Below are positions 7,617 through 26,083 of a stretch of 27,545 bases of DNA, piece by piece (position 1 is the stretch's first letter; every line of letters starts with the position of its first letter). Source of the stretch: a virus. Location of the stretch: positions 1-27,545 of IMG/VR virus record IMGVR_UViG_3300006754_000120, one strand, 5' to 3'. The translations under genes and the position numbers were made by a program. Under the pieces are notes generated by a model. It was not told where the DNA came from. It worked only from the letters and a program-made list of their open reading frames with translations, and made no database searches.

Positions 7617-9257
7617 ATGGCAAAATATATAGCACCAGAAGTTAAGGATATAAGTAGCAGCTTATCTTTAGAAGATACGATAAGAGCATTGGCTGATAGT
7701 GCTTTGACAGGCCTTGAGCATTATGCTAAATTAAAGGGTGCTGAAAATAGGTTTGATGTTAATGTTAACCTAAAATCATTAAATGCATCAGTAAAAGATT
7801 TAAAATGGACAACTTCAACTCCAGAAGACTTCGAGAATGCTCTTACAGCTGTTGATAACCTTATTAGTCCTGAGAGTATGAAAGGCCTGAATAATAGTAC
7901 TAAAGAAACTATATCAAGTGCTGCCACCATATATAAGTCTAAGATTGAAAAAGAGCAAGCCTTAAGAAGTCAAGCAGATGTTGCAGAAGCTGATTTAAAT
8001 ATATTGCTAAATAAATTAGACAGCTTGGGTAACAGTGCGTTAGGTAATAGTGAGTATGATACTGTAGAAGCTCTAGAGGTTCTTGAACAAATTAGACTAG
8101 CTAAGCAGCATAATATCAAAGAGATATCAAACTATTTAGATAAGCAAGCGTCAGAAAAACTTCTTCAAGGTAATAATGAACTAGCCACAAGAAACCTATT
8201 GCAATCAATAGATATGGATAGCACAAAGGAGGGTATTTCTCTAGAAGTATCTTCAGACCTAGCTAATTATTATAAAAAAGCTTTTGACTATCTTAACATG
8301 GAACAGACATCATTTGACAAGGAGACAGGAATGACTACCTTCAATGTGAAGGAAAATGATGAGCTGGCTACATGGAATGCATGGATGCTTGGGGATGACC
8401 CAAAAACAGCGAAGATTGAGAAGGGCTTATTTGGCACTGCAAAAGATGCATTTGATAAGTACCAAACTGCACAAGAAGAATTTAGCGAAGATATAAGCCA
8501 ATTCGATACAGGTGAAATAATAGGTATGGTAGACGAGGGTATCAATGCAAAATCATTAGGCTCAACTGAGCAAATTACATCTAAGAAGATAATTGATTAT
8601 TACTTTAGTGGGCAAGCGCCAGATAAGAATATGGATTATTATGAGTCAGAGTTAGGAGCTTACAATGCAGCAATGCATTTAAAGAATCAATTCCTTGAAG
8701 GAGATACTCCAGCTGATAGAGATATTAATGATGAGATGATAAAATATAGAAGTGACTTATACAAAAAAGGTGTTACCTCATTCGAGGCTCAAGAGGCTAA
8801 CGAAGCCCTCAAGAACGATGCTATTAATCGTGTTAATCGTGTGTATAGCGCTATTGGAATTTCTAAAATAGATGAGAAGTCTGAAGAGTTTTCACCCACA
8901 ATGGCTAAGGATATTAAAATAAATCTTGGTGAAGCTATGTATACGAATATAGATTGGGGTACTGGTGGGTCCGAAACAGAGCATATACCAAAAATAGAAG
9001 AGTTAAGAAAGGCTATGATTACAGGGAAAAATACTGATATAATCATGGAGCAACTTGTAGATGAATACCTTGATAGAGATGGAAGAGAGCTTAATAAAGA
9101 AAAAGTAATGCGTGCATTTGAAGTAATTGGTGAGATTGGCAATAAGCCAGAAATGATGGAAGCGGTAACTAGGTTCTACAATATATTAAGGGCTTTCGAT
9201 TCTACTGAAATGGTCTATCCATCAAGCGCAGATACAAACGATTCTTTTGCAGAATAG
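7617..9257 (+). CDS. Helical candidate internal virion protein (546 aa)
   Basis: This 546-aa protein appears almost wholly alpha-helical, acidic and free of cysteine, with long heptad-like runs of Leu, Lys, Glu and Asp and no membrane span or enzyme motif. It lies between the Cys-rich protein and the giant protein, where podoviruses keep internal-core/ejection proteins. AAGGA sits about 9 bases before ATG 7617. I infer a structural role inside the capsid or ejection conduit. No family is recognised. Confidence 0.55.
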   Translation: MAKYIAPEVKDISSSLSLEDTIRALADSALTGLEHYAKLKGAENRFDVNVNLKSLNASVKDLKWTTSTPEDFENALTAVDNLISPESMKGLNNSTKETISSAATIYKSKIEKEQALRSQADVAEADLNILLNKLDSLGNSALGNSEYDTVEALEVLEQIRLAKQHNIKEISNYLDKQASEKLLQGNNELATRNLLQSIDMDSTKEGISLEVSSDLANYYKKAFDYLNMEQTSFDKETGMTTFNVKENDELATWNAWMLGDDPKTAKIEKGLFGTAKDAFDKYQTAQEEFSEDISQFDTGEIIGMVDEGINAKSLGSTEQITSKKIIDYYFSGQAPDKNMDYYESELGAYNAAMHLKNQFLEGDTPADRDINDEMIKYRSDLYKKGVTSFEAQEANEALKNDAINRVNRVYSAIGISKIDEKSEEFSPTMAKDIKINLGEAMYTNIDWGTGGSETEHIPKIEELRKAMITGKNTDIIMEQLVDEYLDRDGRELNKEKVMRAFEVIGEIGNKPEMMEAVTRFYNILRAFDSTEMVYPSSADTNDSFAE

Positions 9258-9272: not shown

Positions 9273-12200
9273 ATGGCAACAAACCTTTCGTATGATGAGC
9301 AGATAGAAGCTTTATTAAATGCTGTCAATGACTATCAATCTCCCATTGATACATCTCCTCCTGTTGAAGTCGAGGATAAATATAACCTATCATGGGCTGA
9401 AGCTGCAGCTCAATTAAGAGGTATAGGCTATATACAGGAACATGACTGGACAGAAGAAGACTTTTCATTTATAGACCCTGTTACTAATGAGACATGGTAT
9501 AAAAATACCATTGCTAATGACAGACCTTTTTATAATCTCCTTGCTGAAAATATGGACAAGCCATTTGTCAGTAGACTATTTGATTCATCAGCGCCTTCAA
9601 TCCAAGGTCAAGATGATGAAGGAAATCTAGTTGATATAACTCACTTAATGGCATCATCTGATAATTTAGTATATCCTACAGTTGTTGCTAATCCCGATAA
9701 CCCATCCGAACTTATAGACCTTACAGATGTGGGGCTTGCTGGCCTCTGGGAAGGCATAGACCCTTATGACCATGCAATAAGTAGCGGCAATTATATTGAA
9801 TTTCCTGATGAGCGTAATGCTCGTGCATTTGGAGAACATTATAAGAACTTTATTCCTCCTAAGAAAGAGGAAGATAGAGTTAAGAATGGCTGGTCAAAAA
9901 AGAAGCCTATAGCTGTTACTGATGCGCAATTTGTAATGGGCTACCTCCAGCATAGAGAAGAAACTAATGGTGATGGCTGGGATAAATTAGAACGAATCAA
10001 TGAAGAGATTCCCATAGAAATTAGAGCGCATTTACCTGAAGGTCATAGACATTATTGGGAAGCTGGGTTAGGTGATATTGGTAAGCATGCGGCATGGAGC
10101 AAAATCTGGGGTGCAGCTTATGTTTTGCCTAGTGCAATAACAGGCCCTCTAGAGAGTATCTATTCTAAGAGTGAGGCTATCCTTGAAGCTGATTTCGGTA
10201 AGTTAGGAAGTGCAGTATATGATATAGCGATGGGTGAGAACCCTGATGAGATTCTCAATGGCTTTAAAGAGTGGAGAGCAGAAACAGGTAGAGTTGGTAA
10301 GGTGTTAGATGAAACTAGCAATACTATGGAATTAGTCCAAGACTATTTTGCTAAAAAGTCTGAGGCTGCATTTAAACAGCAAATGGATAACCCCAGATGG
10401 CAAGCATATAATGTCCATTTAGATAAAATTAGAGAAAAGAGTGTCCTCCCATGGAAAGATGACTTTATGGGTGTTGATGATTTTGGTACTTATTTATTAG
10501 ATGCAATGTCTTCTCAAGTTGCAACTTATGGAGCGGGGGCCGTAACCTTTGCAGCAACTAAAAGTATGCCTGCAACCTTAGCGGCAATAAGAGGCGGTGC
10601 ATTTATCATGGAAGGTACTGATGAATGGAGACAAGAGTATAGTCATTTCCGCGCTCAAGGTTTATCTCCACAAGAAGCTTCAGAAAGAGCATGGGTAGGA
10701 TATGTATTATATGGTACAGGCGCTGCTGCTATTGAAGGATGGGGTGCTAAACAATGGCTATCACCTAATGCCAGAGCATTACTGGAGAATGATAAAAAGA
10801 TTTTATGGGATAAAGTTAAGAATGTCGTAAGAAAGGTTCCGAAGACAGATAAGATTGGGAAAGTATTCCCTTCTGCTCCTAAGCGTGGTGCAGGTAAGTG
10901 GGCTACAGACTTAGGTAAGATGTCAGTAATAAGACCAGTAGCAGAATACATCACCGAGGGAAGTCAAAGATTATTTCAAGGTGTAGTGCAAGAAAGATAT
11001 ACTGATGTTAACTGGTCAGAAGCTTATGATGAAGCTAAGGAAGAGGCTAGAGCAGGTGCAGTATCCGCATTGTTTATGGGTGCTGGTGTAGATGTAACAA
11101 CTGGTTTATATGAAGCAACAACTGGTTATTCTGCCTATAAAGTGAAAAAAGAAAAGTCTCAATTCGACAGAAAGGTAAGCGAAGCTGAAGAAGCTGAGAT
11201 AGTAGATGAGAAGACTGAAGGTAAGCAGCCACATGAAGTAGTAGCGATGGCTACCATAGATAAGTTTATGGAGGGGGACAACTTTACCGAGGAGCAATTA
11301 GGTCCTGATGCATTTCAAAGATTAGAGAATCTCGACATAATAACAAGTCCTGATAATATATTAGATGCATTGAAACTTGGTGGTGAAGAAGCAATTATTG
11401 ATGCAGGTTATAGCGTTGAAGAAGTGCTTAATGAGATAGAATCTTACTATGGAGAATCTACCCCAGATATAAGGGCTAAAGCAGAATCGGCTATTAGAGG
11501 CAAGAAAACTCAAGATGAGGTTATACTACCAGGAGTAGAGGAATCTCCTGTTACAGGGCCTGTTACGGCTCCAGAACAGACCCAAGTTGCCCCTAAAGTT
11601 GTTATCCCAGGTGTACAAGTCGCTACTGCAGACGATTTTGATGTTGATACAACTGAAGATGAAGGAGTCGAAGAAGAGGTAGAAACAGCCCCTGTAATAA
11701 TTCCAGGAGTGACTGTAGCTACTGCTGATGATTTTTTTATTGATGATGAAGATGTTCCTACTGAAGTGCCAACGGGAGAAGCTCCAGTTGAAGGAAAGAA
11801 ACAATCACTTGTCGGACTAACACCATTGAAAAAGGAAGAAGCAATAAAAGATGCGTTTCCAATAAATCGTTCCAGTAAAAGTATAACTCAAATTAAAAAT
11901 ATGATGAATAGTTTTATGAGAAGATATAATAGTTGGGTAGATGATGAGGGAGTAACTAGGGTAGAGCTTGATGATTTTATTGCTAATATTAAGCTTGAAG
12001 ATTTTGCATTGATGATACAATTAGCAAATTCAAAAGAATACATGGACTCTCCTAAACTTATTGGTTACCATAAACCTTTGAATGCAGAGTTTCACAATCT
12101 GGTACTGAAGTTAGATGAGTTTACGATTCCTACTCAAAAAGAAGCTCCAGTTGAAGATACTAGAATTGCTAGGTTTGAAGAAAACTTTAAAGCATTATGG

Positions 12201-15200
12201 GGAGTAGAAGAAAGACCTGCGTTAGATGATATTATTAAGTTTGAGGGTAAAAATTATAAGATTATAGATGTTAAAGATGCAAGTGATGTAATGATACAGC
12301 AGATGCAAGATAATATTTTAGCTGGCCAAGAAGAAGGTATTTCAGGCATTGAAGATATAATGTCTAAAGAAGAATTTGAACAAACTGGGCTGTATCAATT
12401 ATTTAGCTTAGAAGAAGTTGAATTTAAAGGGAATTTAACATTTCCTGTTGGTGGAGACACAGTATTAATAGATGTTCCTATTAATGAACTTGTTGATAAA
12501 GGATTTACATTTAAGCCAGAAGGAGTTGAAGTACAACCTCCAGTTGCTGGCTATGACTTACAGCAAAGAGATATTGAGACTCAAAATAAACTTGAAGATG
12601 TTCCATTACCTCGTGGTTATAAGCATTATAAAGTTGCAATGGCAGATGTCCCCTTAGAAGGAGACAAGAGACCTAAGCTAGTTGCAGGTAAACCTATTAA
12701 ACTTAAAGGTTCTAAGAGAGAGTTTTTCTTATACAAGGATAAGGAAGAATATAAGGTAGTAGATTCTCGGACTGGAACATTCTTAGGTAGCTGGAGAGGG
12801 ACACAAAAAGATGCCATTGAGATAGCGCAAAGAAATTTAGATAAGGCCATTAAAAGTGGTGTATATAAAGATGCTATAGTTAGTACAGAGAGAAAACTAG
12901 CCTCTAGACCTCAGTATCAAACTATAGGTCAAGCAATAGGTGACTTACTAGATGAACAGGATTCAGGCTTTCCATTAATATCAGATGCTGATGAGCAATT
13001 TCAAAAGATTATAACTAAGCTTAAGAAAGATTTCCCAGATGTAATTACATTAGTAGTTGAGAATCTATATGATGACCATGGGATTGAAGTTGCAGGGATT
13101 GCATTTGAAAGTTTAGTTGCATGGTCTAATAGTAAGGCTACTTTAGATACTGCCCCTCACGAATACTTCCATGTATTATTTAATGCATTAAAGCATGTTG
13201 CTGAGATAGATGGCAACACTCAAGTGAAGGAACTTATTGATGGTGGGCTTAAAGAATTTGGCTGGAATGAAGAAGAGTTAGTACAAAAAGTTGCAGAGCT
13301 ATATACTGAAAAGGTTTTAACTGACAATGAAGGTGTTGTTGATAAATCATTAACAGCTAGACTTAAGACTTGGCTCCGTAAGGTATGGAATGCAATAAAG
13401 AAAGCCTTCGGCAAGAAGATAAAAGGTAAGACCTATGCTGAGCAATTAGCAGATATATTCTTTAATGCTACTGATAAATATGTAGATGTTGAAGATGTCA
13501 GGGTTAGTATCCCTGTATCTCAGCTAGTTCGTGATGCAAAGGCAAGATATGCGGGTGCAGGTTTTGCAGACCCTTTTAATCTTGAGAGTGAAGCACAATA
13601 CAATAAGCATGCTATAGGTCGAGTTCTTGCAATGCAAAGACTTGCTAGGCTCTCAGCTGTAGATTATAGCGTTAGGCCTTTACAGGAACTTGATAAGAAA
13701 TTTAATGTAAAGAAATATGCAAAGGGTATTAAAATTGACTCTGACCTTATTAGGGCTATTACTAAGAGATTGTCTGGTAGAGAATATCAGTTAATTAATA
13801 AGATAGTAACTGATAATGGCTTGATGGGTGAGAAGATGAGCATTGAAGATTTCAAAGCTATTGTTCTCTCATATTACTTCCCACTTAGAATACAAAGAGG
13901 GATGGCTAAGGATGAAGCTATTTCTCAAATGTACACATCCTTTGCATTGGACGATTTTAATAATGACTATGGGGAATGGAGCTTTAAGGTTCCTATTACT
14001 GTTAGAGAATCTCATCCGTGGTTTACGAAGTCAGATAATAATACTATTGGTTGGTTTAGAGGAGATAGTAACCCAGAGAATACTAAAGAATTTAGATTAC
14101 AAGAATTGCAATCTGATACATTCCAAAGAGATTTAGGTAAAGGGAACCAGCAATTAGCTATTCTAGGTCAAAAAGTTAGCAAAGAAGACCTTGCTATTCA
14201 AAATGACTTCCTTAAGAATATTGGACATGGCTCTTGGGAGAAGTTCTTATTTAATTCAGTAATGCAATTTCTTAATGACAATAACTATTCAAGTGTGTTG
14301 ATACCTTATGGCAATACAGTTAAAGAGATACAAAACTTTGATAAGATTGAAGAGAAATTAGAATCCTTACCTGCTGAGATTGAAGCTCAAGAATCTCTTG
14401 TTGATAAACTAGACGCGTCTCCTGAATATATTAAAGCCTTAAAAGAATTTAAAGCATTAGCTCCTAAAATCAAGAAGTTATTTAATGACAATAAGCTAGC
14501 AAGTATAATTGCTGAAAATGAAGGTGAACCTACTGTATGGACTTTTAATCAAATAGATGGCAGTAGCTGGAGTGTACAATGGCATTATGAGCCAGTAGAA
14601 CCTACAAGTAAAAAAGAGATTGCGAATGACAAACAGCTTTGGGATGACATTATATCAAACCCTTATAATTATGAATTTAAGTCTGTAGCTGGAATGGAAA
14701 CTTATTTACATAAAACGAAAGATAAAAATAAGACTGTTCGTAGATGGAGTGAGTTGAATAGTCCAGGGCAGGCAGGGCATGATGCATACTGGGATGCTAA
14801 TAGAGAACATACAAAACTAGATAAACTTAAGGATGATTTAGGTCATTATGTAAGGGCTAAAGGTTCAGTAGATAGGATTATACATAGATATGATATGTTT
14901 AAGAAGTTTATCTTAAAGAATCGTAAAGGATATGCTGAATTATATACTGATGATAAGGGAAGAAAATGGGTTAAAACATGGTTAACTGAAAAGGATGCTC
15001 TTGCTGTGCCAATGTATCAACAGTTAAAGAATGATACAGAGGCTTGGGATAAGGCTATGATACTTATCGATGGTGCTTATAGAGAGATGAGTAACGATGC
15101 TAAGGCATTAGGAAAGAAACTTCCATTGGGTGACTTTGTAAGGGTTATGAATGATGAACTACCTGACAGAGCATCTGATGTATTTAATGCATGGCTAAGA

Positions 15201-18200
15201 TTAAGGTTCCCTAATGGTCGTAATAGATTAATGTCTCAGACAGTTGAAGGTCCAGATGGAAGATTTATGTCTGAAGGAGACTTTGCTAAGAGCTTTGCTG
15301 GGGTATATAATGACTTTGAGGATGGGTTGTCTAAGATTGAATCCGATGACTATCTAATGTCTGCTAAGCATGGTGAAAGTGTCGAGAAAGTTTTCTTATC
15401 TGAGATAGGTGCTCAAATGAGCATTGAGGGATTTGCTAAATTTATGAATGCCGCTATCGATGCTGACTATAAAGATTGGTCAACCAATGAACTTCCAAGG
15501 CATGCACTTATTAGTTTTAATGCATTAACTCCTAAGCAGCAGCTTAATCTTAAAAGACTGTATGTGCGTGCAAATAGTGTAGTTACAGCGAATCAAGGTA
15601 AGGTTATGAATGTAAGAAACAACCTTATCTATAACGAATCTCTTATTGGTGGCTTGCAATTAAAGGGGCCAGTAAATCCATTCAATGAAGAGACAAGCTC
15701 AATGCGTGAGCCTAAGATGATTTATGAGATTGCTAATCCTGATATGAAGTCTCGATTACTTTGGTTGAATAAAACTGATATGTTTATTACCACGAATAGA
15801 GACCCTCTTGATATCTTCGGGACTAAGGACCGTACCTTTATCAAGGGAGCTCCTTATACTTTAGAAGAATGGGATGATTTTGAAGATAGATTAAATAAGT
15901 TTGTATATGAAGAGGATGATGTCTTTGGATTAGTGCCTTTATTCTCAAGGTCAGAGAAGGGCAAACTTGCATTTGCCGCTATTAGTAAGAAGCAATTAAA
16001 GATTGCATCAGACCCTAGGATTCTAAAGGCTTACTGGTCAGCAGAAATCAAGGCTTTTAAGGAGTCTAATGACTCCGTTGAAGATATTAAAGCATTCAAA
16101 GCTCAAATAAACAACTTCAATGGCTATAGAGAGGGCGAACAGAAGTTTAAGGACCCTCAGTGGCTTGCAGGAGAAATCGCTCGCTATGAGGCCTATAAAG
16201 AGCTCATGCCATTAAACATGATATCTGATGGTGCTAACTTCTTTAAGAGAATAGCTATTGTAACAACCCCTGTATTCACCTCTCCTTTAATGGAAGATAT
16301 AACAGGAGCTTACTTTGATTTTAATAATATAACATTTGTAGATAAGAATGGTGTTGAGCAGAAAGCTGTTGATATAGTCCCTGGATTTAAAGATAAAATG
16401 TCATATAGTGATGGAACTACTCTTATTGGAGCAAATACTTTTAACTTAGCTAGCAATGCATTTGGATTAGACAGAAGTAGGAAGATTATTAAGACTATCG
16501 TATGGAAATCTGATAAGTCTCTTGCAATGAAACATGAAATGCAATTACCCCCAGCAGGACTCAAGTTATATGAGGGATATGGTACTAAAGCACAGAAGCT
16601 TGTAGCTGAAGTTCGTAGTGATAATAACTTGTATGTTGGAGATAAGATTGTTAATATGATTTTCTCTGATGATGAAGCTAAGATATTTACAGGGAAGTCT
16701 GGTGATATAGTAACAGTAAGGGCTAATGAAATTGGGTTAATTAATTATGCATCAAAGCATGGCTCTGCTAAGTATCCAATACAATCTCTGAACTTTGTTG
16801 ATAATGAAGAAGTCCTCAGTAGCTTTAATGAGAATGTCTTACCTAGAATTAGAGAAAGACTAGGTAGAATGCTCCTACTTACAGGGCATCCAAAGGATAA
16901 TGCAGAAAGAATTTATGGTTGGTTAAAGACTCTTCGCTCTGATGATATTATGGCTCCATCTAATGTACTAGTAGAAAAGAATAAGGCTGCTAGATTAGGC
17001 ATGCATTCAGATAATGAGCCTATGTTAAATGTATTAATGAAGACTCAGTTAATTGAAGGTGCGCTGCAGGCTGACTTTACTGAAGGTGTTCAGTTGCACT
17101 CTGCTCCTGACTGGACTGATGTTGTGCCTGAAGGTTCTGTCTCTATTGCATTGGAAGATGCTAGAGCTGTATTAAAGCCTTACGCTCAGGCTAAAGGGTT
17201 AGATTTAAAAGTTATTGGTAAAGATTATCTAAAGAAAATCAATCAATGGTTGATTAATAATCCTATATATGTACGAGTATCTCGCTCACCTGTTGTTGGT
17301 ATAAATGGAGCTTACCCTGCAAGGGTTTCTGAGCTTCACGATAGAGGTGGTCAGATTTTATTAAATACAAGTCAAGGATATAAGAATCTTGAATTTGACT
17401 TTGATGGAGATACTATTCAATTAGATGTTATAGATGAAGCTGAGTATCTTGCATTGAATGAAATGTTAGATAAGGCATTAAAAGATGGTCGCGTACAAGC
17501 TATTGATTTAAATAAATATGAAAATGATGCTGCAACCTATTCAGATTTATCTAAGAGAGAAAATGCATATGTATTAGCTGAGAAGTTTGGTACAGGGGCT
17601 AGAGCCATTGGAGAGATATCTAATGTTCAGGCTGTACATGGGATGCTACAACATACATTTGGTTACATGGAAGTTACAAATGATGATGGTTCAGTAGAAT
17701 ATATCCATGTTAAAAAATATCAGCATAAAGAATTATTTGAAGAAGGTGGTCTAAATGAAGTAATGACTATTGAAACTCAAATAAGAACATGGCAGCAGGC
17801 AGCACTTGATAATGGTAAGTATTTATTGCTTGATGCTTGGGAATATAGTCAAGAGAAACTATTTAGAAAGTTATTTACTGTTACTAGTTTAGTTGATGGC
17901 AAATTAATAAGTGCTCATTCTTTGAATGATGCTCAATGGGATGCTATGAAGCCTCTAGTAGATATGTATAAAATTCCAGGTCGCATTCGTAATGGGGGTA
18001 CATTTAATGAACAATATAGAATGGATACACAATTAATAGAGAGCCAAAGATATCTTGAATTTACAAAAGATAGAGAAGGTTATTATAGACGAGTATTATA
18101 TAGCCCTGAGAATCAACCTAAAGATGCTGGCATTGCTGTTCCTGGTGAAGAAGTTTCAGGTCCAGTTACTGTAGGGAGACTTCAATTTAGGGATGCTAAA

Positions 18201-19157
18201 GCTCCAATAGAATCTGTGGCTACTGCCTTAGCTGAAGTTTGGGAGCCAATACAGTTGAATGAACCTGAAAGAATTACTCCTGCAAGATTTATACCATTAG
18301 TGTATAAGTCTGTACACCAACAAGCTATGAAGTTATTAGATGAGTCTAAAGAAAATGCAGTAGACACTTGGTTGGCTATGGACTTTACTAAAGCTGATAT
18401 GATTAAGCACGGTATGGAAGGACATGAGTATGCGCAAGAACTACATAATGCACTTGTAACTGCACTTGTTCCTCAGACAAAGAAAGGGACTGCTGTTGAT
18501 ATTAAATGGGCACAACATTCTATATCTGCTATAGCTTCTGGCAGGAAGACTAAGACTACAAGGACCAAAGAACTCCCTGTTGGTGGTACATTCCAAATTA
18601 ATGGTGTTGAATATATTATAACTGCAGTTGAACAGAAGTCTTTAGCTCAAGTTATTGCACATGATTATAGGGATGAGGGTTATAATACTCCTAAAGAATT
18701 AGAGAGTGCATTAAAGAATCTTGGACTTAAGATGGATATGGGTCGTAAATTAAATGTGCATACTTTTAAAGAATATAAGGAAGATGATATTGGCGGTGAG
18801 TTTGCTGGATATGTTGGTCCTCAATCTTGGGGAAGGAATCCTGTGTTACAGAAATTTCAATTAGAATTTGAAGAGAAATTTGCTAACTTGCATCCAATAG
18901 CACAAGAGGTTGCTACCTATTCTTTCTTAGAAGGGCTGCCAAGCATTAATGATAAGATGGAGCAAGTAAGAGGGAATAATAGAAATGTATTGCCTCCATT
19001 CTCTAATAAGAAGACTACATTAGATGCAACTATTATGGCTAATTACTCTATGAAGTATAATGATATAATTAACGATAGAGAGAAACGATTAGAAGAGCCA
19101 TCTCATTTCTCTAACCTTACAACATTTAAGAATATTATTAGAAGGGCGTGTCCATGA
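9273..19157 (+). CDS. Giant polyvalent virion protein with candidate two-barrel RNA polymerase domain
   Basis: This 3294-aa protein is the centre of the window. Modules in order: a YPTVV...IEFPDERNARAFGEHYK module (about 131-190) common in phage internal proteins; Ala/Gly-rich hydrophobic stretches (about 410-450, 473-493, 585-620) that may enter a membrane; an acidic linker with a repeated IPGV-ATADDF motif (750-821); an HExxH metallopeptidase-like module (H1296-E-Y-F-H1300, E1342 as possible third ligand); an ELQSD module (1611-1615); a candidate RNA polymerase (about 2280-2910) with DFDGD at 2709-2713; and an ASCH domain (3077-3168). The size and mix match large polyvalent proteins packaged and injected by phages, as with N4 and crAss-like virion RNA polymerases. 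AAGGA precedes ATG 9273. The last four bases overlap the next gene (ATGA). Domain calls vary in strength; the ORF is certain. Confidence 0.9.
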   Translation: MATNLSYDEQIEALLNAVNDYQSPIDTSPPVEVEDKYNLSWAEAAAQLRGIGYIQEHDWTEEDFSFIDPVTNETWYKNTIANDRPFYNLLAENMDKPFVSRLFDSSAPSIQGQDDEGNLVDITHLMASSDNLVYPTVVANPDNPSELIDLTDVGLAGLWEGIDPYDHAISSGNYIEFPDERNARAFGEHYKNFIPPKKEEDRVKNGWSKKKPIAVTDAQFVMGYLQHREETNGDGWDKLERINEEIPIEIRAHLPEGHRHYWEAGLGDIGKHAAWSKIWGAAYVLPSAITGPLESIYSKSEAILEADFGKLGSAVYDIAMGENPDEILNGFKEWRAETGRVGKVLDETSNTMELVQDYFAKKSEAAFKQQMDNPRWQAYNVHLDKIREKSVLPWKDDFMGVDDFGTYLLDAMSSQVATYGAGAVTFAATKSMPATLAAIRGGAFIMEGTDEWRQEYSHFRAQGLSPQEASERAWVGYVLYGTGAAAIEGWGAKQWLSPNARALLENDKKILWDKVKNVVRKVPKTDKIGKVFPSAPKRGAGKWATDLGKMSVIRPVAEYITEGSQRLFQGVVQERYTDVNWSEAYDEAKEEARAGAVSALFMGAGVDVTTGLYEATTGYSAYKVKKEKSQFDRKVSEAEEAEIVDEKTEGKQPHEVVAMATIDKFMEGDNFTEEQLGPDAFQRLENLDIITSPDNILDALKLGGEEAIIDAGYSVEEVLNEIESYYGESTPDIRAKAESAIRGKKTQDEVILPGVEESPVTGPVTAPEQTQVAPKVVIPGVQVATADDFDVDTTEDEGVEEEVETAPVIIPGVTVATADDFFIDDEDVPTEVPTGEAPVEGKKQSLVGLTPLKKEEAIKDAFPINRSSKSITQIKNMMNSFMRRYNSWVDDEGVTRVELDDFIANIKLEDFALMIQLANSKEYMDSPKLIGYHKPLNAEFHNLVLKLDEFTIPTQKEAPVEDTRIARFEENFKALWGVEERPALDDIIKFEGKNYKIIDVKDASDVMIQQMQDNILAGQEEGISGIEDIMSKEEFEQTGLYQLFSLEEVEFKGNLTFPVGGDTVLIDVPINELVDKGFTFKPEGVEVQPPVAGYDLQQRDIETQNKLEDVPLPRGYKHYKVAMADVPLEGDKRPKLVAGKPIKLKGSKREFFLYKDKEEYKVVDSRTGTFLGSWRGTQKDAIEIAQRNLDKAIKSGVYKDAIVSTERKLASRPQYQTIGQAIGDLLDEQDSGFPLISDADEQFQKIITKLKKDFPDVITLVVENLYDDHGIEVAGIAFESLVAWSNSKATLDTAPHEYFHVLFNALKHVAEIDGNTQVKELIDGGLKEFGWNEEELVQKVAELYTEKVLTDNEGVVDKSLTARLKTWLRKVWNAIKKAFGKKIKGKTYAEQLADIFFNATDKYVDVEDVRVSIPVSQLVRDAKARYAGAGFADPFNLESEAQYNKHAIGRVLAMQRLARLSAVDYSVRPLQELDKKFNVKKYAKGIKIDSDLIRAITKRLSGREYQLINKIVTDNGLMGEKMSIEDFKAIVLSYYFPLRIQRGMAKDEAISQMYTSFALDDFNNDYGEWSFKVPITVRESHPWFTKSDNNTIGWFRGDSNPENTKEFRLQELQSDTFQRDLGKGNQQLAILGQKVSKEDLAIQNDFLKNIGHGSWEKFLFNSVMQFLNDNNYSSVLIPYGNTVKEIQNFDKIEEKLESLPAEIEAQESLVDKLDASPEYIKALKEFKALAPKIKKLFNDNKLASIIAENEGEPTVWTFNQIDGSSWSVQWHYEPVEPTSKKEIANDKQLWDDIISNPYNYEFKSVAGMETYLHKTKDKNKTVRRWSELNSPGQAGHDAYWDANREHTKLDKLKDDLGHYVRAKGSVDRIIHRYDMFKKFILKNRKGYAELYTDDKGRKWVKTWLTEKDALAVPMYQQLKNDTEAWDKAMILIDGAYREMSNDAKALGKKLPLGDFVRVMNDELPDRASDVFNAWLRLRFPNGRNRLMSQTVEGPDGRFMSEGDFAKSFAGVYNDFEDGLSKIESDDYLMSAKHGESVEKVFLSEIGAQMSIEGFAKFMNAAIDADYKDWSTNELPRHALISFNALTPKQQLNLKRLYVRANSVVTANQGKVMNVRNNLIYNESLIGGLQLKGPVNPFNEETSSMREPKMIYEIANPDMKSRLLWLNKTDMFITTNRDPLDIFGTKDRTFIKGAPYTLEEWDDFEDRLNKFVYEEDDVFGLVPLFSRSEKGKLAFAAISKKQLKIASDPRILKAYWSAEIKAFKESNDSVEDIKAFKAQINNFNGYREGEQKFKDPQWLAGEIARYEAYKELMPLNMISDGANFFKRIAIVTTPVFTSPLMEDITGAYFDFNNITFVDKNGVEQKAVDIVPGFKDKMSYSDGTTLIGANTFNLASNAFGLDRSRKIIKTIVWKSDKSLAMKHEMQLPPAGLKLYEGYGTKAQKLVAEVRSDNNLYVGDKIVNMIFSDDEAKIFTGKSGDIVTVRANEIGLINYASKHGSAKYPIQSLNFVDNEEVLSSFNENVLPRIRERLGRMLLLTGHPKDNAERIYGWLKTLRSDDIMAPSNVLVEKNKAARLGMHSDNEPMLNVLMKTQLIEGALQADFTEGVQLHSAPDWTDVVPEGSVSIALEDARAVLKPYAQAKGLDLKVIGKDYLKKINQWLINNPIYVRVSRSPVVGINGAYPARVSELHDRGGQILLNTSQGYKNLEFDFDGDTIQLDVIDEAEYLALNEMLDKALKDGRVQAIDLNKYENDAATYSDLSKRENAYVLAEKFGTGARAIGEISNVQAVHGMLQHTFGYMEVTNDDGSVEYIHVKKYQHKELFEEGGLNEVMTIETQIRTWQQAALDNGKYLLLDAWEYSQEKLFRKLFTVTSLVDGKLISAHSLNDAQWDAMKPLVDMYKIPGRIRNGGTFNEQYRMDTQLIESQRYLEFTKDREGYYRRVLYSPENQPKDAGIAVPGEEVSGPVTVGRLQFRDAKAPIESVATALAEVWEPIQLNEPERITPARFIPLVYKSVHQQAMKLLDESKENAVDTWLAMDFTKADMIKHGMEGHEYAQELHNALVTALVPQTKKGTAVDIKWAQHSISAIASGRKTKTTRTKELPVGGTFQINGVEYIITAVEQKSLAQVIAHDYRDEGYNTPKELESALKNLGLKMDMGRKLNVHTFKEYKEDDIGGEFAGYVGPQSWGRNPVLQKFQLEFEEKFANLHPIAQEVATYSFLEGLPSINDKMEQVRGNNRNVLPPFSNKKTTLDATIMANYSMKYNDIINDREKRLEEPSHFSNLTTFKNIIRRACP
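11598..11743 (+). repeat. Short duplicated motif in an acidic linker of the giant protein
   Basis: Residues 776-789 (VVIPGVQVATADDF) and 808-821 (VIIPGVTVATADDF) match at 11 of 14 positions, 32 residues apart; a partial third copy (VILPGV) is at 750-755. They lie in an Asp/Glu/Pro-rich linker, so they may be short binding or processing motifs rather than a folded domain. Confidence 0.75.
13056..13410 (+). other. HExxH metallopeptidase-like module within the giant protein
   Basis: Residues about 1262-1379. HEYFH at 1296-1300 follows a threonine-containing turn (ATLDTAP), as in zinc peptidase-type modules of phage and conjugative-element polyvalent proteins. In that family, HExxH supplies two zinc ligands and the catalytic Glu, and a Glu on a later helix is the third ligand; E1342 in ELVQKVAELYTE is a good candidate. 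A basic helix with Trp follows (about 1365-1390). Possible roles are self-processing of the giant protein or attack on host proteins after injection. Confidence 0.65.
13980..14330 (+). other. ELQSD module of phage polyvalent proteins
   Basis: Residues about 1570-1686. GWFRGD is followed by LQELQSDTFQ (Glu1611-Leu-Gln-Ser-Asp1615) and later by a helix and strand ending SSVLIPYGNT. This order (GW-F-R, ELQSD, a helix, then a strand with PxGxT) recurs in large phage and mobile-element polyvalent proteins. I recall the pattern but not its biochemical function. Confidence 0.5.
16122..17990 (+). other. Candidate single-chain double-psi beta-barrel RNA polymerase domain
   Basis: Residues about 2284-2906. 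Landmarks in order: SDG at 2379-2381; lysine-rich strands (K2404, K2407, K2412, K2415, K2420); SKHGSAKYP at 2494-2502, loosely like the lysine-bearing segment of an RNAP beta barrel; an R-S-P strand about 38 residues before the key motif, as the R-A-P strand precedes NADFDGD in RNAP beta-prime; EFDFDGDTIQLDV with D2709, D2711 and D2713 as the metal-chelating triad; IGEISN at 2779-2784; and QAALDNGKY at 2842-2850, matching the D-x-x-K helix seen after the active site in single-chain family members. Known members are QDE-1-type polymerases, YonO and the crAss-like virion RNAP. Catalytic activity is inferred. Confidence 0.72.
18501..18776 (+). other. ASCH (PUA-like) domain at the C-terminus of the giant protein
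   Basis: Residues 3077-3168. The signature is IASGRKTKTTRTKELPVGGT at 3087-3106, followed by the strands of TFQINGVEYIITAVEQKSL, a YRDEGYNTPKELESAL helix, and a closing VHTFKEY strand. This order matches stand-alone bacterial ASCH proteins, whose SGxKTxTxR segment lines a cleft that binds RNA or modified nucleosides. Attached just after a candidate RNA polymerase, it could bind transcripts, the promoter strand or nucleotides. Confidence 0.8.
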
Positions 19158-22100
19158 GCAAGTGTAGTACACAAGATATGATAGAAATGATGAGAACTCT
19201 AAGGAGCGTTGAGTCTGATGAAAACTATCAAAGAGTTAAGGCTGTCTTTAGTAATGCTGAGGAAACTGAAAAGAGATTAGATGCGAAGATAACTGAATGG
19301 GAAAATAATAATCCATTCTATGAAGAGATTTCTGACGAAGACTGGGTTAAGATGTATGGCGATGAAACTGAAAGAGCTTCATTAGCTGATAAGCTTTGGA
19401 CAATTCTAGGAGATAACCCTCATATAGCAGAGTTAATAGAGCAGGAAATGATATATGACCTAGCTAGACCTGAAGCTAACTATCCTATAGGTATGGTTGA
19501 ATGGGCTGATAATGGTAAAGACATTAAATTGAATTATGGTAAGGTTCCTAAGGATAGTCTAAAGAAATGGATTTTAAAAGCTAATGGATGGGCTAAGGCA
19601 AAAGGCGAGAAAATGAATCGTGGGTTTTATAAGAAGACTTCTTTAGCTCATGGCTTACCACAGAATATTAAATATGATGACCCTACTGCAGGGTATGCTA
19701 TTATGGCTGAGGCGAAAGATACACATGCAGATGGAATTGGGTTTAGAATATCTCAGTATATGCATGATGATGGTAAACGCGGTTATGGAATGCAGGATAT
19801 TTATGATAATTTATCTAAGCTATTTGAGAATATATCAGAAGAAGGCAGAAGGAATTGGGGGGCAAAGAATAATATAAAGTCTGAAGATACAGGTACTCCT
19901 ATAAGACAATGGATTACTGAATTATTTACAATGGCAATGCATGGGCAGGCTATATTTGTCTCTGAAAGTATGGCTGCAGAAGATAACCAATTTAATGAAG
20001 CTGGCACTTATATCTTTACTCAAAGAGCTCCTACAGGTAAACAATTTGATAATGGCGATGCTATATTTCATTGGCAAAAGCCTATTAAGTTAGAAGACTA
20101 TAATCCTGAAATTCACGGTAGTCCAGGTAATAAGTTAGTGTTTAAAGACGCTAAAGGTAGAGAGCGACATGACCTTATGGAGTTCTTTAAACTTAATGTA
20201 CCTCTTAATAAAGCTAGGATGGAAAAGTTTCAGAAGAGCTTAGAAGATGCTCGTGAAATTGATAATGAGGTTGCTAAAAAAATAGTTGAGATAACTAAGA
20301 TTTCATATAATAAGATAATTAAAGAAATACAAAATTGGTTTCCTAGTTTAGATAGTGGCCTTATTTATAATATGTTTACTCTTGATGAAGAAGTGGAAAC
20401 TATACAGCAATTCTTAGATAGAAGTGTATCCTCAGAAGAATTAAGAAACAACACTCTTAATACATATAACTATCTTCAAAACAACTTCACCCAGTATTCA
20501 TTAAGCGAGCCATTCTTCTTTAATGGGGATACATTGCAGTACAAAGAGAATCACTGGCCTGCATTGTTTGATGCATTTTATGCTGTAATGTTAAAGGATA
20601 GCATCTCAGATTTAGAGTCAGAAATGGATAGAGTAAGAATAGCAAAGAATCAAGCAAAGGGTTCACAGAAAATTGCATTTAGAAAAACTCTTGAAGGCTT
20701 AAAATCTAGCCATAAAAAATCAATGGACACTTTTACAAGGTTAATAGAGGATGATAATGTAGATAATATAGGTCGTCAGATTGCTACAAGAAGGTCATCT
20801 AAATATGCTAAGCATATCAGTAATGCATTTGATATGTTAAATATGCGTAAAGATGGAGATGTTTATAGAGATTATCTTAAACAAGTTATGACTACACCAG
20901 CAACTAATAATTTAACTGAAAGACTATTGGTTGCATTAAGAACTTCAAAGGATTATTCTGGAGTACAAGATGCTATTGTTGCATTATATAAAAGAACTCT
21001 TGGGCACAAGGATGCAAGAAGTCAAGTGTTCGGGTTTGAGACAGCTGATGAGAATTGGAGTCCAGCAGCATTATCTGTTATTCGTTCCTTTAATAACTGG
21101 AGCACTATGAAGCTTGGAGGTGTAGGCTCTCCTATTACCAATTTAGCTGGCCATATACAAAAAATGATTCATGGCGGCAGAGATGCTATGATTAAAGCTA
21201 GACAAGATTATGTGAAATTAAAAGATAATGATGCATTTAAAAGATTAATTGCGGATTCAGGTGTTGTTGAATTTGAAGAGTTTTATGGAGCATCTATAAT
21301 TGAAGACTTGGAGGCTTTAGAGCTTAAGAAAGATGCAATCAATAAATTAATGGCAGCTACTTTAGGATATTGGAAAGAGGTTAGTGAAGGAGGGAATAGG
21401 CGTACAGCTGAGGCTAAACTTAAGAAGTTTTTCTTAGAGACATTTAAACAAGAGATGAACTTCGATGCTATTTATTCACCAGAAGAAGCTAAGAAGATGT
21501 CTAAGAAGTTGAAGCAGGAAAAAAGAATTGCTCAAACATCTAAGTTGGTTAATTTTGCGATTAATAGGGAATATAATCAATCTCAAGCATTAAAAGATGT
21601 GTCATGGGCTTCTATTGATGCGGGCAAAAAGGGGGCTACTTTAATATTGGATAAGCTTGCAAAAGTTTTATCAGCCTTGCCTACAATGTCACAAACTGAG
21701 AAAGAACTTAGAATGAGCTCAGTTATTATGGCTTATGATTCATTAAAGAAATTTAATCTTGTAGTTAATCCAATAGATGAGCTTGCTGATAATGAGAGAG
21801 CTTTGGTTATTAAGTGGGGTCGTATTTATACAAGGCAGTTTTTAGATTTTGGAATGTCAAGTAGTGATGCAGGTGAGGTATTTGGCGCCCAAATAGGCAA
21901 GCTAATGAGTAAGTTTTCTATATGGAAGCAGCAGAAATATATTAAAGATTCAACTATGTTTACTGATGCTATGAGGACTCAAAGAGATGATGACAAACTT
22001 ATGTCTGTTATAAACTCATGGTTTAAAGTTTGGCTTAAAGGGATACCTCTTCCTGGCAGGATTAAAGGACAGAAATTTACTCGAACAACTAATGTGGATA

Positions 22101-22588
22101 TGGCAATGGTTAGGTCTTTCTTATGGAGTCAGGGATTAGTGCAGGGAATATTAGATGTAGGAATGATTGCACTTGAATTAATAGGCTTTACTGCATTAAG
22201 GCAGGGAGCAAGTGCTTTATTTATAGCAGCAGGAATACGAAAAGGGAATCCTTTGGGCTCTTCGTATATGGCTTTTAGGCTTTTACCATTTGCTATTGCA
22301 ATGCAAATGATGGCAGGGAATTTAGATGATGAAGATGATTGGCTTAAAATGCTGAAATATTATATAAGACATATTCCAATTACAGGATTAGGCTTTTCAA
22401 TGCTTTCTGAACTATCATTGTCATTATCGGCTGGGGCTTATGGAGATGTGAAAATTGCAACCGAAGGAATTAAGGATGCAATTAAGACAATGCTACCTGT
22501 ATCGCAGGGAGTAGCTTCACCATTAGTTGATGCAGCAGGTAAATTAATTGAACCTGATAAGAAGAAGAAAAAGTCTAAGTATCGTTAA
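19154..22588 (+). CDS. Second giant virion-type protein with C-terminal membrane segments
   Basis: This protein of about 1144 aa starts at ATG 19154, inside the previous stop (ATGA); a GTG at 19148 is a less likely start. The N-terminal two thirds are soluble and helical. From about residue 640 it resembles the C-terminal regions of phage large polyvalent proteins: MKLGGVGSPITNLAG at 652-666, then long helices, then hydrophobic stretches at about 985-1028, 1036-1058 and 1075-1100 that may span or enter a membrane. It ends in a very basic tail (KKKKKSKYR). By analogy with N4 and T7, a partner protein that forms the passage through the cell envelope for the DNA and the giant polymerase protein is plausible. 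No catalytic motif is recognised. Its stop overlaps the opposite-strand stop by four bases. Confidence 0.75.
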   Translation: MSKCSTQDMIEMMRTLRSVESDENYQRVKAVFSNAEETEKRLDAKITEWENNNPFYEEISDEDWVKMYGDETERASLADKLWTILGDNPHIAELIEQEMIYDLARPEANYPIGMVEWADNGKDIKLNYGKVPKDSLKKWILKANGWAKAKGEKMNRGFYKKTSLAHGLPQNIKYDDPTAGYAIMAEAKDTHADGIGFRISQYMHDDGKRGYGMQDIYDNLSKLFENISEEGRRNWGAKNNIKSEDTGTPIRQWITELFTMAMHGQAIFVSESMAAEDNQFNEAGTYIFTQRAPTGKQFDNGDAIFHWQKPIKLEDYNPEIHGSPGNKLVFKDAKGRERHDLMEFFKLNVPLNKARMEKFQKSLEDAREIDNEVAKKIVEITKISYNKIIKEIQNWFPSLDSGLIYNMFTLDEEVETIQQFLDRSVSSEELRNNTLNTYNYLQNNFTQYSLSEPFFFNGDTLQYKENHWPALFDAFYAVMLKDSISDLESEMDRVRIAKNQAKGSQKIAFRKTLEGLKSSHKKSMDTFTRLIEDDNVDNIGRQIATRRSSKYAKHISNAFDMLNMRKDGDVYRDYLKQVMTTPATNNLTERLLVALRTSKDYSGVQDAIVALYKRTLGHKDARSQVFGFETADENWSPAALSVIRSFNNWSTMKLGGVGSPITNLAGHIQKMIHGGRDAMIKARQDYVKLKDNDAFKRLIADSGVVEFEEFYGASIIEDLEALELKKDAINKLMAATLGYWKEVSEGGNRRTAEAKLKKFFLETFKQEMNFDAIYSPEEAKKMSKKLKQEKRIAQTSKLVNFAINREYNQSQALKDVSWASIDAGKKGATLILDKLAKVLSALPTMSQTEKELRMSSVIMAYDSLKKFNLVVNPIDELADNERALVIKWGRIYTRQFLDFGMSSSDAGEVFGAQIGKLMSKFSIWKQQKYIKDSTMFTDAMRTQRDDDKLMSVINSWFKVWLKGIPLPGRIKGQKFTRTTNVDMAMVRSFLWSQGLVQGILDVGMIALELIGFTALRQGASALFIAAGIRKGNPLGSSYMAFRLLPFAIAMQMMAGNLDDEDDWLKMLKYYIRHIPITGLGFSMLSELSLSLSAGAYGDVKIATEGIKDAIKTMLPVSQGVASPLVDAAGKLIEPDKKKKKSKYR

Positions 22589-22758
22589 GACTTATTAACT
22601 ATATAGGGGCTTTGCATTAGAGCGTCTGCAGTTTTTGAATCACCTCTTTTTATAGCTGATTCTATTTGCTGAGCAACTACCATTGCATTAGACCAAAAAT
22701 AATCTTGTGTTTCAGTCGGCTTCTTTTCTATCGGGGTTTCTAGTTTTGCTTTGAACAA
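22585..22758 (-). CDS. Short overlapping ORF at the end of the early operon (57 aa)
   Basis: The frame runs from TTG 22758 (or from ATG 22683, giving 32 aa) to TAA 22587-22585. The translation looks protein-like (ETQDYFWSNAMVVAQQI, then IESAIKRGDSKTADALM) and fills the otherwise empty interval before the convergent giant gene. The TTG start overlaps the upstream nuclease gene by 47 bases, and no clear ribosome-binding site is visible for either start. The frame is +1 relative to the nuclease gene, so a frameshifted extension of that protein is an alternative. Function unknown. Confidence 0.4.
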   Translation of the reverse strand: MFKAKLETPIEKKPTETQDYFWSNAMVVAQQIESAIKRGDSKTADALMQSPYIVNKS

Positions 22759-23086
22759 GTTCTATCCATTCGTTTAAAGGGACAGCCACATATGGCTTAG
22801 TCCCATTCTTTTTAATAACAAGTGCAGGGACACATTCTTCTTTAATGTTAGCTTCTGTCTGTCGGACACAAGCCCAGAAATTAAGTTTTTCTACATTTTT
22901 ACATTCAATACTGTAAGGGATAAGCTTTCGAGCAGCTGGTGATAGGACTATATCCTCACCATTAACACCCATGATTTGACTTTTAATGTCATCATCATGT
23001 AAGAAAGGGAATGCCTGTCGTAGTTCATCCCTTACAAAGTTTTGAAGTCTTCTTCCTTTAGCCTTAGAGGACCTAGGATTAGCCAT
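22712..23086 (-). CDS. PD-(D/E)XK nuclease-like protein (124 aa)
   Basis: The 124-aa protein starts with basic residues and KGRRLQNFVRDELRQAFP, typical of short phage PD-(D/E)XK nucleases. The candidate active site is D45 (GED) followed by E61-C-K63 (IECKN), then a helix with NFWACVRQTE and a strand plus KPYVAVPLNEW ending. This spacing suits a Holliday-junction-resolvase-like or other restriction-fold endonuclease cutting DNA during recombination or host-DNA breakdown. Its ATG overlaps the stop of the 70-aa gene upstream (TAATG). The fold assignment is fairly good; substrate is unknown. Confidence 0.7.
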   Translation of the reverse strand: MANPRSSKAKGRRLQNFVRDELRQAFPFLHDDDIKSQIMGVNGEDIVLSPAARKLIPYSIECKNVEKLNFWACVRQTEANIKEECVPALVIKKNGTKPYVAVPLNEWIELVQSKTRNPDRKEAD

Positions 23087-23298
23087 TAGATATCTTTCTG
23101 TATGTTTTTAAACAGATTTGGTTCTTCTCTCTTAGCACATTTATCACATATTTCTTTAGAAGTGACATTATCAGTAAGGCTCCGTATAGCTGGGTGAGGG
23201 AATTTAATTTCATAAACACTCCTCCTCCTAATCCAGCTCTTATAACAAAGGTGACATATTGAATTGTATTTCTCTCCTAGATACTTTAAGCGCTCCAT
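23086..23298 (-). CDS. Small zinc-finger-like protein (70 aa)
   Basis: Two Cys pairs, C15-x2-C18 and C51-x2-C54, frame a basic central segment (SWIRRRSV), a layout that would bind one zinc ion. Small proteins with two CxxC knuckles are frequent in phage early operons and often bind nucleic acid or host proteins, but no specific family is recognised here. It is coupled to the downstream nuclease gene by TAATG. Confidence 0.65.
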   Translation of the reverse strand: MERLKYLGEKYNSICHLCYKSWIRRRSVYEIKFPHPAIRSLTDNVTSKEICDKCAKREEPNLFKNIQKDI

Positions 23299-23322
23299 GC
23301 GGCCTGATAATATATAATGACT

Positions 23323-23547
23323 TTAATTACAAGCACAAGTATTATCATTGCGATTGCATTTTTTGCATCTATTATTATGACCTCCTTTGAAATCTAAGTC
23401 CCTTATAACTTCATCAAAGTCCAGCTTATTGTGGAAAAGTTGCCTTATTAAAAGTTCAAGTTTATACACATGATAGGTAAATGCAAATACTAGATACATC
23501 AGTATCACTAATATAATTACTATTACTAATTGTAAAGGGTCCATCAT
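23323..23547 (-). CDS. Small membrane protein with Cys-rich tail (74 aa)
   Basis: One strongly hydrophobic span (about 5-27, starting right after MMDP) is followed by a charged region and a cysteine cluster at the end (C61, C64, C71, C73). The likely topology is a membrane anchor with a small metal-binding or disulfide tail. GGAGG precedes the start region by about 11 bases; starts at 23547 and 23544 are equally possible. The first bases overlap the end of the 57-aa gene. Function unknown. Confidence 0.6.
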   Translation of the reverse strand: MMDPLQLVIVIILVILMYLVFAFTYHVYKLELLIRQLFHNKLDFDEVIRDLDFKGGHNNRCKKCNRNDNTCACN

Positions 23548-23717
23548 TGTTCAAATACCTCCGATATTTTAAAATGCATCTCTTGCATTATGGTTAAGTA
23601 CTTTAAATACAGTCGCTTATAGTTATCTCTATCTACTTGTAATTCCATAAGTTTATCTTTTAAACAATATAGACAGCCTGTGTCTATCTCTGTTTGATTA
23701 CAATATGAGCAATGCAT
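23544..23717 (-). CDS. Small zinc-finger-like protein (57 aa)
   Basis: ATG 23717 follows directly on the TAA of the upstream nuclease-like gene, and the frame ends at TGA overlapping the next start. The 57-aa product has C3-x2-C6 and C15-x2-C18 knuckles (MHCSYC, GCLYC) followed by a charged helix (LMELQVDRDNYKRLYLKY), the layout of a zinc knuckle plus coiled coil. It lies in what would otherwise be a 170-base gap. Function unknown. Confidence 0.65.
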   Translation of the reverse strand: MHCSYCNQTEIDTGCLYCLKDKLMELQVDRDNYKRLYLKYLTIMQEMHFKISEVFEQ

Positions 23718-24131
23718 TTAATTATCCTCTGTCATTTTAATTAAGCCATCAATAATAGCTCTTAAATTTAAAAGTACCATCTTAGAATCCATATTATCAC
23801 CTCCGTAAGTAGTTTTCTTATTAGGCATCTTATTGCATAACTCCTTTAATTTATCAACAGGAAACAATAAGGAACAGTATATTTCATCATTTTTAACAAG
23901 GTTATGTACCCATACATCTGATTCAGTTGCTCTTATACCACTTTTCTTTCCTTTAAATTCGTATTCAATAGCTATATTGCCTGTTGATGCCCATATATCT
24001 CTTTCAGTTTTTACCTCTACCTTGGTATTACCTGAGAATAATTTATCAATATACTTCTCCCATTTCTGGCCAAAGTTTAAATCAATATCAAATTTCTTTA
24101 ATTCTCTTATATCTGTTGATTCATTTATCAT
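23718..24131 (-). CDS. PD-(D/E)XK-like endonuclease (137 aa)
   Basis: The start is ATG 24131, with GGAGAG eight bases upstream and TAATG overlap with the upstream gene; a TTG at 24146 is less likely. The 137-aa protein has FGQKWEKYIDKLF, then KVEVKTERDIWASTGNIAIE and KKSGIRATESDVWVH. This series (Glu helix, E39-x-K41, TGN-x-A-x-E, SGI-x-T-x-SD-x-W) matches a short phage nuclease family with the restriction-enzyme fold. It probably cuts DNA, but the substrate is unknown. It is the second of three such proteins in this operon. Confidence 0.65.
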   Translation of the reverse strand: MINESTDIRELKKFDIDLNFGQKWEKYIDKLFSGNTKVEVKTERDIWASTGNIAIEYEFKGKKSGIRATESDVWVHNLVKNDEIYCSLLFPVDKLKELCNKMPNKKTTYGGDNMDSKMVLLNLRAIIDGLIKMTEDN

Positions 24132-24586
24132 TATATTTCTCTCCAAGGTATTATATAGTGTTCTTTATTGTTGTCTTCATAGCGCTGCTTTGGGTGTTTC
24201 TCGGCTATTTCTTTAAGCGAAGTATACATTATCTGTTTTAATACATTAAAGGTCGTAGAATAGGCGAATACACATATAGGAGCTACTTGTTCCCAGTTAT
24301 CATACTCTTCCATATCTTCAAGTTTTAAATGCAGTACATCTCTACATCCCTTAGATTCTATGAATACAAACTGTCCTTTAGTTACAGCACATGCGTCAGG
24401 CATATTCCTTAAGAACTTAGGAAACTTCCAGAATACCTCAGAAGGTATTTGGTCTTTCTTCTCATCGAAGCCTATACGCTTATAGTATGACTCTTTACCC
24501 TTAAAGTATTCATCTGTTTTAACTTGAGCTATGTCCACCCTATTAGTATTACGCTCTTTAAATGTTGATTCTGCATCTGTTTTCAT
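24131..24586 (-). CDS. PD-(D/E)XK-like nuclease (151 aa)
   Basis: The 151-aa protein contains a candidate restriction-fold active site: P63-D64 in FLRNMPDACAV, a strand, then E77-S-K79 in FVFIESKGC, followed by LKLEDMEEYDNW as the conserved helix. The sequence between D64 and E77 is twelve residues, normal for PD-(D/E)XK enzymes. It is coupled on both sides (ATGA with the 60-aa gene, TAATG with the next nuclease gene). The role could be recombination, replication-fork processing or host-genome degradation. Confidence 0.65.
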   Translation of the reverse strand: MKTDAESTFKERNTNRVDIAQVKTDEYFKGKESYYKRIGFDEKKDQIPSEVFWKFPKFLRNMPDACAVTKGQFVFIESKGCRDVLHLKLEDMEEYDNWEQVAPICVFAYSTTFNVLKQIMYTSLKEIAEKHPKQRYEDNNKEHYIIPWREI

Positions 24587-24765
24587 TTCTTTACCTCACA
24601 AAATAGTTTACACTCAGTACACATAGGTTTATTATTATATATTCTTATCTCAGCTGAGTGGCAATCACTTAAAGGTATAGGGTCTTTTATGAATGATATA
24701 TGAAAAAGTACAACTAATGTTGTTATGAATGTACATATCCATATTACGAATCCTAAATCTTTCAT
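24583..24765 (-). CDS. Small membrane protein with four cysteines (60 aa)
   Basis: An N-terminal membrane span (about 5-27) is followed by a short region with C35, C49, C52 and C56 (CTECKLFC). It might place a small metal-binding knuckle at the membrane, like the 74-aa protein farther along the operon. Start ATG 24765 overlaps the upstream stop (ATGA). No known family. Confidence 0.6.
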   Translation of the reverse strand: MKDLGFVIWICTFITTLVVLFHISFIKDPIPLSDCHSAEIRIYNNKPMCTECKLFCEVKK

Positions 24766-25007
24766 TCTTTCTCCTTTTTATATTCAAATCCTACAGGATA
24801 AGGTGTTTTGCGTTCTTTACGCTTTGCTTTAGCTCTATCTAATCGAGCATAAGCCTTTTTTTCTTTACAATTATGGTAAGTGCCTGTTTTTTTATCAAAT
24901 AATCCCCAACCATAATCTGTTTCAGCCCAATGGACTTTTCTAGAATCACATCTACAGTACTTACAACCCCTAGATGTATATCCGAATTTCTTGCTTTTTG
25001 TATACAT
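24762..25007 (-). CDS. Small basic Cys-containing protein (81 aa)
   Basis: The 81-aa protein has C15-x2-C18-x-C20 near the start, then W and GWGLFDKKTGTYHNC with H45 and C47, and a very basic Lys/Arg-rich C-terminal half. The Cys/His set may bind zinc, and the basic tail may bind nucleic acid. A GAAGGATG stretch provides the ribosome-binding site. It is the first gene after the structured leader at 25021-25090, which could therefore control its translation. Function unknown. Confidence 0.65.
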   Translation of the reverse strand: MYTKSKKFGYTSRGCKYCRCDSRKVHWAETDYGWGLFDKKTGTYHNCKEKKAYARLDRAKAKRKERKTPYPVGFEYKKEKE

Positions 25008-25020
25008 ATCATCCTTCTAT

Positions 25021-25090
25021 CCCATAGCCACAGGATTGTTAATTCGTGGTATTGCTCCTACAGCAACTGAAAATCACTTGCCTGTGGCTC
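25021..25090 (-). ncRNA. Candidate structured leader RNA
   Basis: This gene-free interval of about 90 bases holds a nested inverted repeat. A 9-bp closing stem pairs 25026-25034 (AGCCACAGG on +) with 25081-25089 (CCTGTGGCT on +). Inside it a hairpin pairs 25052-25056 with 25062-25066 (TTGCT/AGCAA, five-base loop), and a short GTG/CAC pairing may stack between. No U-tract follows the stem on the minus strand, so it is not a normal terminator. It sits just before the 81-aa gene's ribosome-binding site. It could be a leader element, processing site or riboswitch-like structure; no known RNA family is recognised. Confidence 0.4.
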
Positions 25091-25099
25091 TTTAGGGAA

Positions 25100-26042: not shown

Positions 26043-26063
26043 TAGTTACTGTCCTTTCTCTAA

Positions 26064-26078
26064 AGGGGCCTAGCCCCT
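26064..26078 (-). terminator. Short GC-rich hairpin before the DUF932 gene
   Basis: AGGGGC at 26064-26069 pairs perfectly with GCCCCT at 26073-26078 across a three-base loop. On the minus strand it is followed by TTTA and then the DUF932 ribosome-binding site. It may be a weak terminator or attenuator, or an RNA stability element between the two genes; six base pairs and a short T run make termination uncertain. Confidence 0.35.
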
Positions 26079-26083
26079 GTTGA

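Follow-up and report, generated by a model that had tools for sequence, protein, structure and literature searches.

Giant RNA polymerases carried in virions have precedents among phages (PMC10770324, PMC5512222). N4 gp50 and its relatives in the Schitoviridae are described in PMC5512222 and PMC12633501 as ejected RNA polymerases of about 3500 aa, which include an HExxH metallopeptidase and are encoded among virion genes. In the crAss-like phage phi14:2, the giant virion protein gp66 (PDB 6vr4) holds both polymerase barrels in one chain, its D-x-D-x-D loop reads DFDID and is accompanied by a VDNAK segment, and a large partner gene directly adjoins it. The Thermus phage P23-45 encodes gp96 (PMC10770324), a giant protein of the virion that combines a two-barrel core with a metallopeptidase domain; gp96 serves as tape measure in a phage with a very long tail and has its RNA polymerase at the N-terminus. 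Single-chain two-barrel polymerases also include YonO of the SP-beta prophage (PMC5467207) and QDE-1, neither of which forms part of a giant virion-type phage protein. Polyvalent phage proteins, as PMC5512222 presents them, are very large and multidomain, with HExxH motifs and exchangeable domains; their RNA polymerase modules are of the N4 type, and no two-barrel RNA polymerase was found in the passages of that paper that were searched.

The window analyzed here is a virus record of 27,545 bases, in which an open reading frame at 9273-19157 (+) remains open for 3294 aa. Residues about 2300-2900 of this giant protein are best explained as a single-chain two-barrel RNA polymerase core, and the protein as a likely ejected virion RNA polymerase, a reading to which we assign a probability of about 0.78. 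The core had been proposed in an earlier note from a series of motifs, and both conservation and the predicted fold now support that proposal. The same note knew of no precedent for the set of domains, but P23-45 gp96 already joins a DFDGD polymerase to a metallopeptidase (PMC10770324). By its motifs the window protein resembles gp96 in this respect, and it resembles phi14:2 gp66 in having both predicted barrels in one chain of a giant, probably virion-borne protein with a large partner gene beside it, whereas its core lies towards the C-terminus in a phage with a P22-like portal and its similarity to gp96 is marginal beyond the region of the aspartate triad. Since giant virion RNA polymerases are known and gp96 provides a two-barrel case with a metallopeptidase, the kind of protein is not new; the family to which the window protein belongs is best read as a new and highly divergent family of virion RNA polymerases.

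The giant protein had no Pfam or PHROG family match even at E ≤ 1, and its sole match in NCBIfam fell far under the cut-off of that model. A phmmer search of the core against PDB sequences returned nothing relevant. Since Pfam, PHROG, and NCBIfam all leave the polymerase core unlabelled, current annotation cannot see proteins of this type. The only match in a tblastn search against isolated phages was a 41-residue patch shared with mycobacteriophage metallophosphoesterases (E 3e-3), which was taken as chance.

Conserved motifs of the family

The final alignment (A3) comprises 12 sequences from environmental virus contigs, in which the relatives share 17-49% identity with the window protein and five members with DHDGD are mutually closer (55-90% identity). 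One relative, G001, is a 47,974-base record that is probably near-complete, as a 141-bp repeat with 99% identity occurs at its two ends; its giant protein of 2996 aa is 43% identical to the window protein over 1399 aa. Two scans of prokaryote genome contigs yielded no relatives, and the family was found neither in the isolated-phage collection nor in the open-licence papers searched.

The motif series listed in the earlier note is in place in the window protein. The putative metal-binding loop DFDGD (D2709/D2711/D2713; aa 2709-2713, 17397-17411, +) is kept as D-x-D-G-D in all 12 members, as DFDGD in two, DGDGD in three, DNDGD in one, DYDGD in one, and DHDGD in five, so that the residue between the first two aspartates may be F, G, N, Y, or H. 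Distant members lacking DFDGD were recruited by a scan for the motif QAAxDN[AG]K, and 10 of the 12 members were found through this motif and not through DFDGD; the invariance of the three aspartates, proposed beforehand as a check, was therefore an independent test, which the family passed. Most of the proteins recovered by a scan of viral contigs for FDFDGDT were small (about 250 aa) and unrelated, and the bare DFDGD motif is thus not diagnostic.

Several other positions are invariant in all 12 members. These are the Asp-Gly pair D2380-G2381 within "SDG" (16410-16415, +), the lysines K2407 (16491-16493, +) and K2420 (16530-16532, +), DEAK at aa 2467-2470 (16671-16682, +), R2671-x-P2673 (17283-17291, +), and Q2842-A-A-x-D2846-N-x-K2849, which in the window reads QAALDNGK (aa 2842-2849, 17796-17819, +) and is a candidate bridge helix. 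The distance from R-x-P to the triad, given in the earlier note as about 38 residues, is exactly 38 in the window and 38 or 40 in every member. The lysines had been placed differently: the segment SKHGSAKYP, put forward at about 210 residues before the triad, is not conserved in the 12-member alignment, and the two lysines that are invariant, K2407 and K2420, precede the triad by 302 and 289 residues. The alignment provides a motif set for finding further members, with a core of about 860 aa.

Predicted fold and relationship to known polymerases

AlphaFold2 gave no usable model from the single sequence (pLDDT 31), whereas aa 2200-3060 (15870-18452, +) modelled with the A3 alignment reached a pLDDT of 74.5 and a pTM of 0.73. 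As the earlier note had anticipated, the model points to two-barrel RNA polymerases, which make up all seven PDB fold matches at E ≤ 0.001. The top match was the crAss-like phi14:2 virion RNA polymerase (E 1.3e-8), followed by QDE-1, represented by three chains, and the others were P74-26 gp62 and P23-45 gp64. Bacterial, plastid, and phage AR9 RNA polymerase chains ranked next, and the bacterial and plastid beta-prime-type chains superposed at 3.3-3.4 Å over about 140 columns with a probability of 1.00. Whole-length TM-scores to solved structures were modest (TMq 0.37 at best) and rmsd values were large over long alignments, and the match therefore supports the core fold and not the whole architecture. 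Among predicted viral structures there were clear relatives without an assigned name (27% identity, TM 0.70).

Two double-psi barrels likely form the core of the modelled fold. The likely lysine-bearing barrel, DPBB-A (aa ~2376-2491, 16398-16745, +), is suggested by model strands and invariant residues, and the likely aspartate-bearing barrel, DPBB-B (aa ~2605-2720, 17085-17432, +), by the model and by alignment with beta-prime and P23-45 gp96; the boundaries of both were read from predicted secondary structure and not from superposition. A predicted helix at aa 2833-2845 leads into QAAxDN[AG]K. By contrast with this double-barrel prediction, N4 gp50 has the unrelated T7-type (palm) polymerase fold.

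At the sequence level, the family is marginally similar to known RNA polymerases, the best hhalign E-values being about 1.6e-4 to 2e-3 at probabilities ≤ 50%. The family profile runs in register through R-x-P...DxDGD with beta-prime (E 3.4e-4, 94 columns) and with P23-45 gp96, and these two had the highest profile scores against about 700 unrelated ORFs plus DxDGD-bearing ones. In gp96 the distance from R-x-P to DFDGD is also 38, DG and EEAK occur in matching order, with EEAK at a place comparable to DEAK, and identity around the triad is 35% over 51 columns. Significant sequence homology was found neither to gp96 (E 0.0017, 16% probability) nor to phi14:2 gp66 (hhalign E 0.29), and the sequence families of both are fold-level relatives only. 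The weak gp66 alignment falls on its VDNAK segment, which lies about 240 residues from the triad compared to 133-165 residues for the corresponding spacing in the window family.

Virion context and proposed function

The giant gene is placed after tail-type genes, and a relative of the 1146-aa protein encoded at 19148-22588 (+) lies directly downstream of it in all 12 records, with a length of about 1,150-1,240 aa where complete. Homology of this partner to phi14:2 gp65 was not detectable, although the partner genes of the two systems are similar in position. Seven of the 12 records encode a P22-like portal; one of the seven is the near-complete G001, where an SU10-type capsid protein is encoded as well. 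A zincin-type metallopeptidase motif, HEYFH (aa 1296-1300, 13158-13172, +), is suggested by motif and conservation; HExxH is found upstream of the core in seven proteins, including those of the window and G001, and is missing in five, at least two of which are cut by contig ends. The large-protein cassette, the P22-like portal, and HExxH support the location of the core in a virion-type protein. T7-type RNA polymerase (PF00940) was not found in the window or in G001, G003, and G006, with T7 as a working positive control. The 546-aa protein encoded immediately upstream (7617-9257, +) possibly belongs to the same ejection or virion set, judging by its position.

The giant proteins of relatives carry GHKL ATPase, GNAT, 2OG-Fe(II) oxygenase, circularly permuted YpsA (SLOG), and FtsK-gamma domains. 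With its multidomain organization, its zincin-like motif, and enzymatic domains exchanged between members, the giant protein has the polyvalent pattern, and the window family is comparable to the polyvalent proteins of PMC5512222. The FtsK-gamma DNA-binding domain was identified at aa 941-992 of the G001 giant protein (L008/L010; E 1.1e-10) and was not detected in that of the window. Past the polymerase core, an ASCH/PUA-like segment was recognized by eye at aa ~3070-3130 of the window protein and also in G001, and the giant protein of G008 (L280) has a cpYpsA SLOG domain (aa 4137-4219) at approximately the same place. An acidic linker of the window protein (window ~11590-11745) contains the short motif IPGVxVATADDF twice, and the G001 giant protein has a similar repeated VVTADDF/VVTAADF; the repeat is perhaps a packaging or processing signal.

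In the proposed mechanism, conserved lysines would come from the first barrel and the metal-binding loop D-x-D-G-D from the second, with QAAxDN[AG]K, a segment resembling a bridge helix, coming next in the chain. The core is situated towards the C-terminus of the multidomain (polyvalent) protein, in a phage of the P22-portal type. Most likely the giant protein is carried in the capsid and enters the host with the DNA and with its large conserved partner encoded downstream; the peptidase may process it, and the two-barrel core would then transcribe the first phage genes independently of the host enzyme, in the manner of N4 gp50, phi14:2 gp66, and P23-45 gp96. The conserved motifs, the predicted fold, the family, and the synteny are results of the analysis, whereas catalysis, template type, packaging, and the role in early transcription are inferred by analogy with these three proteins (PMC10770324, PMC5512222, PMC12633501).

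An active two-barrel polymerase could also be made during infection to transcribe later genes, like YonO or P23-45 gp64, and single-chain two-barrel RNA polymerases outside virions do exist (PMC5467207, PMC10770324). However, the known non-virion enzymes are far smaller, YonO for example being ~100 kDa (PMC5467207), whereas the core is here fused into a multidomain protein of more than 3000 aa with HExxH, located after tail-type genes and beside a conserved large partner, which makes a non-virion enzyme unlikely. That the barrels make another product, as an RNA-dependent RNA polymerase, a primase-like enzyme, or a PolD-like DNA polymerase, is suggested by the rank of QDE-1 as second-best fold match and by the presence of the same two barrels in PolD (PMC10770324, PMC4996933), but the top fold match, the phi14:2 virion RNA polymerase, is DNA-dependent and the tailed-phage context favors transcription of DNA, so that we regard this as quite unlikely.

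It is very improbable that the two barrels have lost catalysis and persist as a structural or DNA-binding relic, as might be supposed for a giant, structural-looking protein of very divergent sequence: the three aspartates, both lysines, and R-x-P are invariant in 12 members, whose identity to the window protein falls as low as 17%, which argues that catalysis is retained. An EF-hand or another calcium-binding loop, or a chance match, would be hardly credible as an explanation of D-x-D-G-D. A profile search of PDB sequences did rank centrins first (E 2.2e-4) and unrelated proteins also carry FDFDGDT, yet the centrin match falls on the DG/lysine region and not on the triad, the invariant glycine occupies loop position 4 where EF-hands have glycine at position 6, and the fold search gives RNA polymerases; an EF-hand identity was rejected on loop geometry and fold. 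The preferred reading therefore remains an ejected virion RNA polymerase with a two-barrel core. On balance, though with less assurance, we also favor its wider form, namely that these single-chain two-barrel RNA polymerases form a deeply divergent lineage not described before, which occurs as a module of giant ejected polyvalent proteins in P22-portal phages, has a constant large partner, and serves early transcription independent of the host RNA polymerase, convergent with the T7-type virion polymerase of N4. If this is true, the two-barrel superfamily, to which cellular RNA polymerases belong, would gain a new branch carried by tailed phages whose genomes measure ~50 kb, and a giant ejected RNA polymerase would have arisen with two unrelated folds, the T7 type in N4 and the two-barrel type here, in phi14:2, and in P23-45.

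Other genes and other groups with polymerase motifs

Among the tail-type genes of the window, 837-1724 encodes a protein in which metallophosphoesterase-like motifs (GNHDD, GHWHD) follow a zinc-ribbon-like CxxC...CxxC segment at the N-terminus; it has no Pfam match and is conserved in G001. At the other end, a convergent block of minus-strand genes (22585-27545) includes a DnaB-like helicase (26735-27532), a Gp157-like gene (26084-26581), and DUF932 (25287-26042), and is likely the early or replication region.

Two ORFs from viral contigs of 116-127 kb, L011 (4548 aa) and L029 (1617 aa), combine R-[FY]-P with DFDGDTVQ and fall outside the family by HMM; they possibly represent another two-barrel RNA polymerase group. 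The ORFs L020, L021, L023, L025, L032, L034, and L036, of about 800-1060 aa, carry RYPHxGxxxIP...ADFDGDTVQVIP and are likely stand-alone single-chain two-barrel polymerases.
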